Translations under genes and position numbers: made by a program
Shown: one piece after another, positions 60,191 through 64,000 of the stretch
Layout of the letters: each line of letters opens with the position of its first letter
Position numbering within the stretch: the stretch's first letter is position 1
Assembly: GCF_018688495.1 (NCBI RefSeq)
Contig: NZ_CP061320.1
Span: 1,274,586-1,338,585 of the forward strand
Origin: Polynucleobacter sp. Adler-ghost
GTDB taxonomy: Bacteria; Pseudomonadota; Gammaproteobacteria; Burkholderiales; Burkholderiaceae
Direction of reading: 5' to 3'
Length of the DNA stretch: 64,000 nucleotides
The notes under the pieces: model-generated
The model's database searches: none
What the model saw: the letters and a program-made list of their open reading frames with translations, nothing else
Told to the model about the DNA's origin: nothing

Positions 60191-61165
60191 CTAGCGTAAT
60201 CGCTCAACATAATAAGTCGCCTTTTCCAAGGCATCTGCTGCATCAAACCCAACCATATCAGCACCCAATTCATCTACCAACTCTGGGCATTGATTGAAGA
60301 CAGGGCTGCCAACAATCAGGCCAACACGTGGGTTTTTTGATTTGAGCTTAATCTCTTGAATCAGGTCTTTTAACTGTGGGAACTGCTCGCGAACACTTGC
60401 AGAAAGGCCGATCACATCAAACCACTCTGTCTGCGCCATGGAAACAATGTCCTCTTGAGTTGCAGCCAACTCACCCCATATTCTCCAGCCGGCTTTGGCG
60501 AAGAATTCAGAGACCATAAATAAGCCTAAGTTATGTTGTGAGCCTGGCAAAGGAACAAGCATGATGCTAGATCCGGTTTTATTTTGCTCTGCATACTGCT
60601 GAAAAATGGGGCTTAAGTCATACATGAGCTGCTTGATACGCCAAAGTGCAATCGTGACGTCGGTAAAACTAGACTCATCTTCCTCCCACATTTCGCCCAA
60701 TTTTCTAGCGACAGGGGTCAATAAGAGCAGATAGATATTTTCCAGACTAACACCAGAAGCATGGATATCTTTGACGTACTTCACAGAGGTTTTCGCATCC
60801 TCTTGCAACACTAATAGTGTTAACTCGTTCACCGATTGTTGCGGAATAAGGTCGACAGGAGGAGCCTTTAAAGCAGAGGAAATTGATGTCTCGAGATGCT
60901 GCTCAACTATCAACGGCAAGATATTATTTTCAATCGTCTTGACTAGCGACTCAAGATATTCCTCTTCCGTACAGGCTTTTTCTAATGGATGTGGAGTATC
61001 GTTTTTTTCAAATGTAGCTTTTGAGGGTGCATTTGAAACCAAGCAGTCCTCCCAAATACTATCGGACTTACTGGGAGTGGAGCTCCGGTTAGGGTTGGAG
61101 TCGTCTTGGCTAGATCTCTTTTTAGATTTAGCGATGCTCACTAGTCTGGATAAATTCATGAACAT
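60191..61165 (-). CDS. B12-binding-domain photosynthesis regulator (PpaA/AerR-like)
   Basis: A 324-residue cytosolic protein; start ATG 61165, with a GTG one codon upstream. A Ser/Lys-rich N-terminus is followed by a helical domain (NIYLLLLTPVARKLGEMWEE about 143-162, then FTDVTIALWRIKQLMYDLSP) and a C-terminal cobalamin-type Rossmann domain. The PpaA/AppA-style element PGSQHNLGLFMVSEFFAKAGW about 208-228 replaces the DxHxxG motif of B12 enzymes; its His is a candidate B12 or haem ligand. Such proteins antagonise the repressor PpsR/CrtJ in purple bacteria. Position beside bciB and dxs supports that reading. A different light or O2 sensory role cannot be excluded. Confidence 0.75.
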   Translation of the reverse strand: MFMNLSRLVSIAKSKKRSSQDDSNPNRSSTPSKSDSIWEDCLVSNAPSKATFEKNDTPHPLEKACTEEEYLESLVKTIENNILPLIVEQHLETSISSALKAPPVDLIPQQSVNELTLLVLQEDAKTSVKYVKDIHASGVSLENIYLLLLTPVARKLGEMWEEDESSFTDVTIALWRIKQLMYDLSPIFQQYAEQNKTGSSIMLVPLPGSQHNLGLFMVSEFFAKAGWRIWGELAATQEDIVSMAQTEWFDVIGLSASVREQFPQLKDLIQEIKLKSKNPRVGLIVGSPVFNQCPELVDELGADMVGFDAADALEKATYYVERLR

Positions 61166-61176
61166 CACTTGATCTG

Positions 61177-61255
61177 GTCACAGTCTCAAGTCATTACTTG
61201 AGATCGCCGTGACTGCCTAAGAGCCTATAAATGGGAATGTTTACTTTATAGGCTC
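61177..61255. repeat. Two adjacent hairpins in the bciB to regulator gap
   Basis: One inverted repeat pairs TCTCAAG (61184-61190) with CTTGAGA (61197-61203), lengthened by GTCAC/GTGAC outside it (61177-61181 with 61209-61213). The second pairs GAGCCTATAAA (61221-61231) with TTTATAGGCTC (61245-61255), an 11-bp perfect stem. On the minus strand only a weak T stretch follows, so this may be an mRNA-processing or regulatory structure as well as a terminator for bciB. Confidence 0.6.
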
Positions 61256-61283
61256 ATTTTTAGGGATACTCAAATGAAATATC

Positions 61284-62531
61284 TTAAGTACTTTCCCTAG
61301 ACGCCCTTTTTTCATCACTAGAAGGTCGTATTTCATATTTTTCAAGTAGAACCCAGGTGGCTTTAGGCACCATGTTTTTTATTTTGTGCGGAGCAACATT
61401 ACGTAATTGAATCACCGATTCAATTGCCTTCATCTCTACCCTTGCTTTAGCAAACTCGAGCCCGCGAGGCCCAAATCTCGGCATTACCCAGGCAAAAATA
61501 CTTCGCATGAAGTTTGGCATCCGCTGTAATGGCAAGCCACCTGCAGCAAGCTCCACATTTTTCATAAAGCCTTTAACGGGACCTAAACGATTGCCAGCGG
61601 AACTCACTGGCTCAAGCGATAGCTCGGTAGAAAGGAGGTTTACGAGCTCTTGACCTTTTGGATTGCGAACAATAATCCATTGCTCTCCCGTGCCTGCCAT
61701 ATACCCCACCGTGATATCCGATAGGGAGTTGACGTAATCAACGCAGGTTTTACAAGTCGTCGGAAAAAAATCTGCGGGCAAAGTACTGAGGGGCAACTTT
61801 AAAAAAGGAATCTCTTGTACTTCACCATTTTTAAATCTCAATTCAACATGGTAGTCGGCTCTAAATTCTAAATACGTAATATCTTCGGGATTGGGACTCA
61901 GCAGGCCTAAAAACTGATGGAAGTTTTCTGTGGTTGTGTTGTCAGAGCAAGGAGACCCGATGATAAGCAGCCTCTCAAATCCAAGTTCTTTTTCCAATGC
62001 TCTTGCAGCATAGACTTGGCACGGTATTCCCACCATCGCTACTTTTTTATATCCTAACTCTCTTGCCTGCTCAAGATACTGAATGATAGGTGCATAGCCC
62101 ATCTTCATACCTCGACACTGAGCCATATCTTCTGCTTTAGTGACGATTACTGGGCTTGGCTTCCAGCGATCCTTGGGGTCAGAACGCATGGTAATGACAG
62201 CATCTATTTCCCCTCTCTCCAACAGAACCTCACATAGCCTACTAATAATCCCTGTCCATTGCGCACCAGGCAATGGGTTAATTAGTCGAGCCCTAAACAT
62301 GTGGAGATAGGCGCCAAAAAATACCTCATCCGAGTTTTCTAGCTTCCGCTCTCTCCCATGAGCTGATAGTTCGTATTTTGGGTAATCAGGTTGAATAAAT
62401 TGGCAAGCAGTAGCGCAGCGCTTGGGAGTTGAGGTGCGTGACACTCCACAATCAGTGCATAAGTCCCGATAGGGAAGATCTTGAGTTAAATCATTTCCTA
62501 CCAATGCTTTATCCAAATCTAGAAATAACAC
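61284..62531 (-). CDS. bciB: BciB-type 3,8-divinyl chlorophyllide 8-vinyl reductase
   Basis: A protein of up to 415 residues of the F420-hydrogenase beta-like family. The N-terminal Fe-S block LCTDCGVSR with CATACQFIQPDYPKYE, then GAQWTGIISRLCEVLLERGE about 91-110, is the BciB pattern; CQVYAARALEKELG and FFPTTCKTCVDYVN supply more cluster Cys. BciB reduces the 8-vinyl group in (bacterio)chlorophyll synthesis with ferredoxin and FAD. GTG 62531 overlaps dxs by 23 bases; TTG 62516 is an alternative start. Non-photosynthetic FrhB-like proteins are the main alternative, but the neighbours favour BciB. Confidence 0.82.
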   Translation of the reverse strand: MLFLDLDKALVGNDLTQDLPYRDLCTDCGVSRTSTPKRCATACQFIQPDYPKYELSAHGRERKLENSDEVFFGAYLHMFRARLINPLPGAQWTGIISRLCEVLLERGEIDAVITMRSDPKDRWKPSPVIVTKAEDMAQCRGMKMGYAPIIQYLEQARELGYKKVAMVGIPCQVYAARALEKELGFERLLIIGSPCSDNTTTENFHQFLGLLSPNPEDITYLEFRADYHVELRFKNGEVQEIPFLKLPLSTLPADFFPTTCKTCVDYVNSLSDITVGYMAGTGEQWIIVRNPKGQELVNLLSTELSLEPVSSAGNRLGPVKGFMKNVELAAGGLPLQRMPNFMRSIFAWVMPRFGPRGLEFAKARVEMKAIESVIQLRNVAPHKIKNMVPKATWVLLEKYEIRPSSDEKRASREST

Positions 62532-64000
62532 TCTGCTTTATCTTTTGAGCAGAGAGTCCGTAATGATCTAATAGCAGATTGACATCGCCGTGCTCTACAT
62601 ACTCATCAGGCAATCCAAGTTGGAGGGTTTCTATTTGAATATTCTTGTTAGACAACACCTCAAGGCAAGCACTTCCAGCACCCCCCTGAATTGCGCTATC
62701 TTCAATCAAGACCAGAGCGTCGTGAGACTGGGCAATAGTCAGAAGTAACTCTTCATCAAGCGGCTTAACAAAGCGCATGTCTACTACAGTCGCATTAATC
62801 TCTTCTGCTACGTCTAAGGCGGAATATAAGATTGGTCCAAAGCAGATGAAAGCGATTTTTTTCTTTGGAGGCGCTTCATGACTAATGCTGCGGACTATTC
62901 TGCCCTTACCGATGGGTAGCGTATCTAATGAAGATTCAACTGGAGTTCCAACTCCGGAACCACGTGGGTAGCGGACAGCTGCTGGGCCATCATGCCTATA
63001 AGCAGTGCTTAACATTGCACGGCATTCTTGCTCATTCGAAGGGGTCATCAGAACTAAGTTTGGCAGGCAACGTAAGAAGGCAATATCAAATGCACCAGCA
63101 TGCGTTGCACCATCTGCACCAACAATACCAGCGCGATCAATCGCAAAAACAATCGGGAGGTTCTGCAAGGTGACATCGTGAATTAGCTGATCATAGCCGC
63201 GCTGTAAAAAGGTGGAGTAAATCGCAACTACTGGCTTTAAGCCTTCACAGGCAATTCCAGCGGCAAAGGTAACAGCATGCTGCTCTGCAATTCCAACATC
63301 AAAGTAGCGATCTGGGAAGCGCGCCTCAAACTCATTTAATCCAGAACCCTCACGCATGGCTGGCGTAATCGCAATCAGTCGCTCATCAGCAGCCCCCATA
63401 TCGCACAACCATTCACCAAATACTTGAGTAAAGGTTTTCTTACTTGCTTTGCCTGCTTGAATCCCTACGCTTGCATCAAATTTACCTGGTCCATGATAAA
63501 GAATGGGATCCTCTTCCGCCCTAGAATAACCTTTACCTTTTTTCGTAATGATATGAAGAAACTGGGGCCCCTCAGTTTGAGCAAGATGTTTGATGTTTTC
63601 TAGAGTAGGAATTAATACATCTAAATTATGTCCATCAATCGGGCCGTAGTAATCAAATCCAAATTCCTCAAAGATCGTGGCTGGACCAACCATGCCTTTT
63701 GCATGACCCTCGAGTCTTTTTGCAAACTCTCGTATTGGGGGAGCAACAGATAGCACCTTATCGATACCTCTTTTGGTTGCCGCATACATCGAGCCTGAAA
63801 TGAGTTTGACTAAATATCGATTGAGTGCTCCAACTGCTGGTGAAATCGACATCTCATTGTCATTGAGTATGACTATCAAAGGCACTTTTTTATTGACGCC
63901 AGCATTGTTCATGGCTTCAAACGCCATACCAGCACTCATAGCGCCATCACCAATAATAGCCACCACGCTGCGCTTTTCATTTTTAGTCTTCGCTGCTACA
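62509..64000 (-). CDS. dxs: 1-deoxy-D-xylulose-5-phosphate synthase, 5' end beyond window
   Basis: The visible 496 codons continue in frame to base 64000, so the N-terminus lies outside the window. The thiamine diphosphate site starts with VAIIGDGAMSAGMAFEAMNN, using the GDG...N motif; the transketolase central domain has FDVGIAEQHAVTFAAGIA with the catalytic Glu, and the C-terminal domain ends SRFG. Dxs condenses pyruvate and glyceraldehyde 3-phosphate, feeding isoprenoids for carotenoids and the phytyl tail of bacteriochlorophyll. It overlaps bciB, and extra dxs copies are common in photosynthesis gene clusters, so this may be a second, dedicated copy. Confidence 0.95.
   Translation of the reverse strand, partial: VAAKTKNEKRSVVAIIGDGAMSAGMAFEAMNNAGVNKKVPLIVILNDNEMSISPAVGALNRYLVKLISGSMYAATKRGIDKVLSVAPPIREFAKRLEGHAKGMVGPATIFEEFGFDYYGPIDGHNLDVLIPTLENIKHLAQTEGPQFLHIITKKGKGYSRAEEDPILYHGPGKFDASVGIQAGKASKKTFTQVFGEWLCDMGAADERLIAITPAMREGSGLNEFEARFPDRYFDVGIAEQHAVTFAAGIACEGLKPVVAIYSTFLQRGYDQLIHDVTLQNLPIVFAIDRAGIVGADGATHAGAFDIAFLRCLPNLVLMTPSNEQECRAMLSTAYRHDGPAAVRYPRGSGVGTPVESSLDTLPIGKGRIVRSISHEAPPKKKIAFICFGPILYSALDVAEEINATVVDMRFVKPLDEELLLTIAQSHDALVLIEDSAIQGGAGSACLEVLSNKNIQIETLQLGLPDEYVEHGDVNLLLDHYGLSAQKIKQSVISRFG

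Follow-up and report, generated by a model that had tools for sequence, protein, structure and literature searches.

Results

The right end of a 64,000-nucleotide window of Polynucleobacter DNA (bases 1274586-1338585 of G000, a single-contig genome of 2.10 Mb that is 100% complete) carries three minus-strand genes: aerR1 for a PpaA/AerR-type regulator, bciB for a predicted 8-vinyl reductase, and dxs. They form the 3' (distal) end of a closely spaced gene run, bchG-bch2-bchP-tspO-hemA-dxs-bciB and then aerR1, which lies at the left border of a photosynthesis gene cluster (PGC). Three sister species carry, in place of the block that starts in the last bciB codons and reaches about 57 kb rightward, DNA of another lineage, with a differently ordered cluster that has the light-dependent reductase LPOR in addition to DPOR. 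We put at about 85% the probability of the reading as a whole, namely that the trio borders a complete type-II PGC, that this cluster was swapped in sister species, and that dxs/hemA, BciB, AerR1 and a second AerR-type protein, AerR2, would have the roles proposed below.

A complete photosynthesis gene cluster next to the window

An earlier note, made from the window alone, had taken the trio for the border of a PGC in a Polynucleobacter-like host. The genus is indeed Polynucleobacter, and open reading frames (ORFs), protein families and best solved relatives agree on the three minus-strand genes, that is, aerR/ppaA with its QHNLG motif, bciB and dxs (TIGR00204, 6.3e-259). Past base 64000 the contig runs into a complete PGC, about 48 kb long and containing puf, bch, acsF, puh and crt genes, which bears out the border. 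The gene bchP is less than 4 kb and pufM/pufL about 30 kb past that base. As expected of a type-II cluster, pufL and pufM lie on the same stretch (PF00124, 1.7e-109 and 7.2e-97), and the genes for the alpha and beta chains of light-harvesting complex 1 (LH1) are also present. The pathway to bacteriochlorophyll (BChl) a is represented by Mg chelatase, cyclase, DPOR, chlorophyllide reductase (COR), bchC, bchF, bchG and bchP. BchH is assigned by the Pfam family CobN/Mg chelatase (4.2e-228, first 1000 residues), BchD scores 567.9 bits, slightly below the cut-off of 571, and bchZ is named from gene order and homologue matches, without a family scan. By gene content the cyclase is of the oxygen-dependent AcsF type, and phototrophy is predicted, not proven, from the same content.

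From bchG to bciB, adjacent genes overlap or are 3-6 bases apart. The overlap of bciB and dxs, reported in the earlier note, is 23 bp with the longest-frame GTG start and would be gone if the in-frame TTG at codon 10 were used. In this run, dxs and hemA would raise the supply of isoprenoids and tetrapyrroles with the demand for BChl. Between psiE and bchI there are eight TGT-N12-ACA sites of the PpsR/CrtJ type. Five of the eight are intergenic in a stretch scored as 4.1% intergenic (p 5.6e-6), a figure that takes the pufBA stretch as intergenic. TGT-N12-ACA is given as the CrtJ consensus (PMC9144470). The site before bchG is found in 19 of 19 testable rows (23 loci given, three without a bchG match and one cut short), in which at least one species is counted twice. 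Between bciB and aerR1 there is a gap of 115 bp whose hairpin is largely kept in 14 aligned loci, with 97.9% of cells paired; this alignment is of type A1 only, the type-A2 loci with their longer gaps being left out. Its covariation is weak, as two pairs changed on both sides, which 94 of 500 shuffles equalled. An Rfam search of 59700-64000 gave one hit, below threshold.

How widely is the cluster distributed? Among 186 Polynucleobacter genomes, PufL/M (PF00124) is found above the family cut-off in 79, and one more match, in G112, is below it. A bciB match occurs in 74 genomes, i.e. 71 of the 79 with PufL/M and 3 of the 107 others. These three (G024, G027, G154) are incomplete and carry bchN, and several of the eight PufL/M genomes without a bciB match are incomplete. 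LPOR, already published for Polynucleobacter (PMC7947762), is found in none of the 28 genomes with a type-A AerR1 (at least 59% identity), the type of the window, and in 26 of the 52 other PufL/M genomes.

Replacement of the cluster in sister species

The flanks were read in the genomes named here, and the swap reading covers only these. The rlmJ-like gene has a match in 181 of the 186 genomes (E up to 1e-50), and in the genomes read, wherever no cluster occupies the spot, it adjoins gene R3 and an S66 carboxypeptidase gene. This is the case in G086, G035, G172 and G108, where neither psiE nor any PGC gene was found between them; G172 carries its PGC at another place. In the window's clade, the cluster sits between psiE and an ABC-transporter gene. 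The psiE gene is at the border spot in G014, L060 and L085, and also in G080, G084 and G074, three single-contig genomes of other species with scarred borders, where it has 95-98% amino acid identity. There, aerR1 is a remnant whose first 41-43 codons are fused in frame to the last few (G080, G084), or is lost except for bases at its start (G074). About 30-75 bases of the end of bciB remain in the three genomes, and then foreign DNA begins, the left junction being located to within about 15 bases.

The left genes of these three genomes are 86-92% identical in nucleotides to those of G000/G014. Genes R3-R10 are only 67-83% identical to G000 and 70-80% to G168, compared with 87-93% to G172 and 89-98% mutually. 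After R10 comes a cluster of another order, here called type B. To the right of it, identity to G000 rises again: G080 has 90-93% along 14.9 kb, and G084 and G074 have 90-92% along about 7 kb, against 85% for the empty-site relative G086. In G080 the block extends from about 1263042 to 1330225 (67 kb), in place of about 57 kb of G000. Because the flanks match the window's genome, the interior is foreign, and the junction keeps psiE and the bciB end, the cluster appears to have been swapped as one allele. Homologous recombination between the host flanks would have made the exchange. The donor is named only as G172-like since G172 is fragmentary. A first tblastn map had suggested a cluster B without DPOR, which was ruled out by bchN, bchB and bchL at its far end.

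A fourth, more distant species, G040, has a hybrid edge of its own, with a cluster B whose right end consists of hemA-dxs and the first third of bciB, followed by a deletion and then a type-A flank. This right end has nucleotide identity of 82-83% to type-A L063, L065, L069 and G087 and 75-76% to type B.

The genes around the border vary as well. In G080, hemE (Pfam URO-D; L016:4592-5782, minus strand) lies between the aerR1 remnant and psiE, and in G087 a stretch beside aerR1 (L033:9412-10538) matches hemE at 72% nucleotide identity. Since hemE stands beside aerR1 in G080 and G087 and not in the window, the gene content of the border has changed. In G001, a stretch 40% identical to PsiE (L031:13887-14075, plus strand) is found between bchI and the AerR gene at the edge of a type-C cluster; thus psiE may travel with the edge AerR. 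Genome G130 (L028, L029), with no PufL/M hit, has bchI, ppsR, an AerR2-type gene, a piece of AerR1 at a contig end, and partial matches to bchD, crtA and bchF, so that it may have a decaying cluster or an assembly gap. A broken aerR1 was ruled out in this genome, as the piece reaches the contig end and terminates at its own stop codon.

Two AerR genes

AerR1 has the domains B12-binding (PF02310, 5e-17) and B12-binding_2 (PF02607, 3.1e-5). Its best solved relative is AerR 7te2 (3.6e-13), which is also the best fold match of its model. Thus of the "B12/haem domain" proposed in the earlier note, the cobalamin side is favoured by both sequence and fold match, and the haem side found no support. 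In this B12-binding fold the lower-ligand histidine is His212 and the cap Trp161/Phe168, with His60 and His91 in the N-terminal part. AerR2 matches 7te2 as well, also with the lower-ligand histidine and the Trp/Phe cap. It is aerR2 that lies next to ppsR, with aerR1 about 25 kb away, and for this reason aerR1 is called AerR-like.

The two proteins differ at the N-terminus. His60 and His91 are each present in all 120 AerR1 homologues listed of 307 (all at least 73% identical), and the His91 residue is also found in six type-A2 edge copies. None of the 120 AerR2 homologues listed of 189 has a histidine at that column or the motif, and 90 of the 120 are without any histidine before the helical bundle; AerR2 keeps the cobalamin-ligand histidine. 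The tree places AerR1 with the type-C edge copy (97/88) and keeps it separate from AerR2 (99/99); its long branches leave the deeper joins unsure. The AerR adjoining ppsR in types B and C scores better against AerR1 than against the shorter AerR2, and has the N-terminal histidine. A search of viral contigs with AerR2 gave 10 pattern matches, with no relative among them.

Then what might two AerR proteins do in one cluster? In Rhodobacter capsulatus, the long AerR isoform, with His10 as the upper cobalt ligand, is described as binding only light-made hydroxocobalamin and activating, and the short isoform as binding all cobalamins tested and repressing (PMC6199135, PMC9144470). Type-A AerR1 and AerR2 would resemble these long and short isoforms split into two genes. 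AerR1 would be a light- and cobalamin-sensing partner of PpsR, its level tied to the operon, while AerR2, which lacks the N-terminal histidines, would show no light selectivity in binding cobalamin. Compared with R. capsulatus AerR (LAerR/SAerR, PDB 7te2), the B12-domain fold, the lower-ligand histidine and the Trp/Phe cap are in common; Polynucleobacter has two genes and a longer N-terminal extension, whereas R. capsulatus has one gene with two start sites. Similarly, PpaA and AppA of Rhodobacter sphaeroides are related to each other and act in opposite ways on one repressor, as is proposed here for Polynucleobacter. AppA contains a flavin domain as well as a SCHIC domain of haem type, whereas AerR1 and AerR2 both keep the cobalamin-type histidine. 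The authors of PMC6199135 suggested that AppA replaced the short isoform by duplication. As for the cobalamin, the window's genome has metH in two adjacent frames (C1:1993848-1997503) and no cobQ hit above cut-off, hence cobalamin is probably imported.

BciB

BciB belongs to the families FrhB_FdhB_N and FrhB_FdhB_C. Its nearest solved relative is HCAR 5dqr (9.1e-68), the best FrhB-type chain reaching only 2.5e-19. In a tree of 38 rows, BciB and HCAR split at 100/100 from the four FrhB-type fragments used as outgroup, with long branches as a caveat; the expectation of the earlier note that BciB stands apart from the beta subunits of F420 hydrogenases is thus upheld. The window's BciB is predicted to be an 8-vinyl reductase of the BciB/HCAR family, which would reduce the C8-vinyl group of chlorophyllide. 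It shares family, length and FrhB-type Cys motifs with BciB of Synechocystis (slr1923) and Chloroherpeton and with plant HCAR (5dqr), and differs from HCAR in the N-terminal Cys pattern, CxxC-x10-C-x3-C against CxxC-x2-C-x11-C. The N-terminal CxxC-x10-C-x3-C is found in 116 of the 120 homologues listed and, of the best 80 named loci among 223, in 66, the pattern search having missed the rest. Among these 80, the BciBs of Polynucleobacter bastaniensis and P. hallstattensis are the closest (94%), and a PGC gene lies within 10 kb in 46, many contigs being short.

The BciBs fall into separate groups by type of cluster (A, B or C), which points to different ancestries; their branching order is unresolved. 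The earlier note had also expected the use of BciB rather than BciA to be informative on ancestry. The use of BciB is not special, as related BciBs (58-65% identity) are found in Rubrivivax, Limnohabitans, Rhodoferax and Hydrogenophaga loci; those of Rubrivivax and Limnohabitans mark BciB as a usual choice in betaproteobacteria.

Discussion

One tentative scenario, which we consider possible but less likely than not, is that type-A clusters split the two AerR isoforms, AerR1 binding cobalamin only after light and activating, AerR2 binding all cobalamins and repressing. The whole cluster with its two regulators would then have been traded between species, as a single allele, for one that bears LPOR and only one AerR, and aerR1 would have decayed once its PpsR was gone. 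Alternatively, the border might be an ordinary one, with AerR1 a redundant paralogue that has no separate role, and with the cluster functionally like other betaproteobacterial ones. Polynucleobacter PGCs have already been published, and paralogy need not imply new function. Yet both N-terminal histidines are kept throughout the listed homologues, AerR1 groups with an edge copy of another cluster type, and aerR1 directly adjoins bciB in 19 of the best 80 of 223 named loci, namely those with bciB identity of at least 70%. We regard an ordinary border as rather unlikely, though it deserves consideration.

It is improbable that the FrhB-family protein is another flavin/Fe-S reductase like HCAR, with the C8-vinyl group reduced by the chlorophyllide reductase BchXYZ. 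Chlorophyll b, the source for the HCAR pathway, is not expected in a purple bacterium, and 71 of the 74 genomes with bciB have PufL/M. The closest solved relative is a plant HCAR and 8 of the 79 PufL/M genomes, several of them incomplete, have no bciB hit, which would suit such a protein, as would the 8-vinyl reduction of COR type that has been described (PMC4214422).

Could the history have run in reverse, the cluster-B species receiving their left flank (psiE, aerR1 remnant, bciB tail) from a type-A species, with cluster A never whole in G080, G084 and G074? A single junction alone is symmetric, and in the left gene L2 G172 and G000 are equally close. But the flank right of cluster B also resembles the window's genome over the lengths given above, so that the interior is the odd piece, and the arrangement is common to three single-contig genomes; the reverse history is therefore very improbable. 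Least probable is that AerR1 acts for an adjoining gene beyond the cluster, such as psiE or, in relatives, hemE, and not for PpsR: one or the other adjoins aerR1 in some species, and a psiE-like frame is near the type-C edge copy in G001, but the outer neighbours vary by species while bciB constantly adjoins aerR1 in type A, and aerR1 is partly or wholly deleted where cluster A is gone.

The reading of a border swapped in sister species, with the roles proposed, has to be set against several observations that do not favour it. For the swap, L2 of the three genomes is 86.7-90.2% identical to G172 and 86.2-87.9% to G000, and the clade member G014 is only 82% identical to G000 over 2.5 kb right of R10; the region is therefore more mosaic than one event would leave it, with other exchanges too. 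The rpoB control separates weakly (G080-G000 95.1, G080-G086 94.1). It has a match in 12 of 14 genomes and none in G172 and G168, and the rows of G108 and G101, at 49-51%, were taken as opposite strand and dropped. The first gene chosen as background control was found in only one of the 14 genomes, G000 itself. In G040, identity of the hemA-dxs block to type-A G000, G018 and L064 is 73-76%, which does not exceed its identity to type B. For BciB, the HCAR rows and the FrhB fragments are long branches in the tree. For AerR1, the model is poor in residues 1-66, too uncertain to place His60 or His91; equating either with His10 of R. capsulatus LAerR would be conjecture; and at that histidine position four of five Limnohabitans-type AerRs have Gln, and L087 has Leu. 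The gap of 115 bp with its hairpin makes the co-transcription of aerR1 with bciB no more than putative. As for phototrophy, P. duraquae is described as having a complete cluster but no pigment seen (PMC5018217).

The cluster has much in common with the PGCs of P. duraquae and other betaproteobacteria, i.e. the full puf/bch/crt/puh set, acsF, and an AerR-type gene beside ppsR. It differs from the published ones in the second AerR gene at its edge, and it has no LPOR, whereas the cluster of some sister species has one. Transfer of whole PGCs has been reported in Rhodobacteraceae (PMC6052148), two PGC types in Bradyrhizobium (PMC10569730), and PGC loss with later replacement was inferred from trees for R. 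capsulatus (PMC6052148, PMC10569730). Whole-cluster transfer is common to these cases and ours; unlike in Rhodobacteraceae and Bradyrhizobium, the junction itself is visible in Polynucleobacter, with remnants of the displaced cluster. A literature search (titles and abstract openings, subscription journals excepted) returned neither two AerR genes in Polynucleobacter nor a scarred PGC swap.

What does this mean for the evolution of anoxygenic photosynthesis? Whole-cluster transfer is usually inferred from tree conflict, while here the junction and displaced pieces are kept in three species and a hybrid edge in a fourth. The junctions give a direction, from a DPOR-only cluster to one that also has the light-dependent reductase, and they make recombination, either between host flanks or inside edge genes that the clusters share, the likely mechanism. 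Furthermore, one AerR gene that has the N-terminal histidines and another that lacks them would allow a gene-by-gene test of the opposing-isoform model.

Features of the region and minor observations

The coordinates are collected in Table 1. The names bciE, lhaA, bch2 and rlmJ are those we presume to apply.

Table 1. Border genes of the window, its continuation past dxs, and the replacing cluster B
Feature	Position	Strand	Remarks
rlmJ-like gene (name presumed)	58870..59736	+	host flank directly left of the cluster
psiE-like membrane protein gene	59764..60135	-	between rlmJ and the cluster; Pfam PsiE 1.6e-17
aerR1, PpaA/AerR-type B12-domain regulator	60191..61168	-	325 aa, QHNLG
bciB-aerR1 gap	61169..61283	-	hairpin just upstream of aerR1
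bciB, 8-vinyl reductase (BciB/HCAR family, flavin, iron-sulphur; predicted)	61284..62531	-	415 aa
Left recombination junction of sister species	61314..61357	.	last codons of bciB; match stops at 61314 (G080), 61346 (G084), 61357 (G074)
dxs, 1-deoxyxylulose-5-phosphate synthase	62509..64000	-	open at window edge, about 390 bases further; 627 aa in genome
Order past dxs, first part			hemA, tspO, bchP, PUCC-type bch2, bchG, ispH, puhE, acsF, 118-aa ORF, puhC, puhB, puhA
Order past dxs, second part			second PUCC protein, bchM, bchL, bchH, bchB, bchN, bchF
Order past dxs, third part		+	second AerR-type gene (aerR2), ppsR, crtA, crtD, crtC
Order past dxs, last part			crtB, crtI, pufC, pufM, pufL, pufA, pufB, bchZ, bchY, bchX, bchC, crtF, crtE, bchO, bchD, bchI
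Intergenic TGT-N12-ACA sites			before bchG; bchF-aerR2; before pufB; before bchC; crtE-bchO
Cluster B after R10, part 1			tspO-dxs-hemA, PUCC gene, bciB, bchP to bchM, bchF, AerR, ppsR, crt, puf
Cluster B, part 2			bchZYXC, crtFE, bchH, bchI, bchD, bchO, LPOR, bchL, bchB, bchN, ABC gene, ispH

Three further observations concern the photosynthesis genes. The 118-aa ORF between puhC and acsF (L003:13106-13462, minus strand) has matches in type A and G123, with no family match and no match in the type-B stretches read; its position recalls that of the cyclase auxiliary bciE. In G101, a stretch 42% identical to PufC (L035:935-1921) lies beside R10, about 300 kb from that genome's own pufLM. Between pufB and pufA there is a hydrophobic ORF of 76 aa (L004:18027-18257, minus strand, i.e. 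C1:1371027-1371257), which matches neither a Pfam or NCBIfam family above cut-off nor any solved chain (E up to 5). All 10 further loci examined, of types A, B and C and of the Hydrogenophaga/Limnohabitans type, have a similar ORF upstream of pufL, and the 76-aa ORF could be an extra LH1 or reaction-centre subunit.

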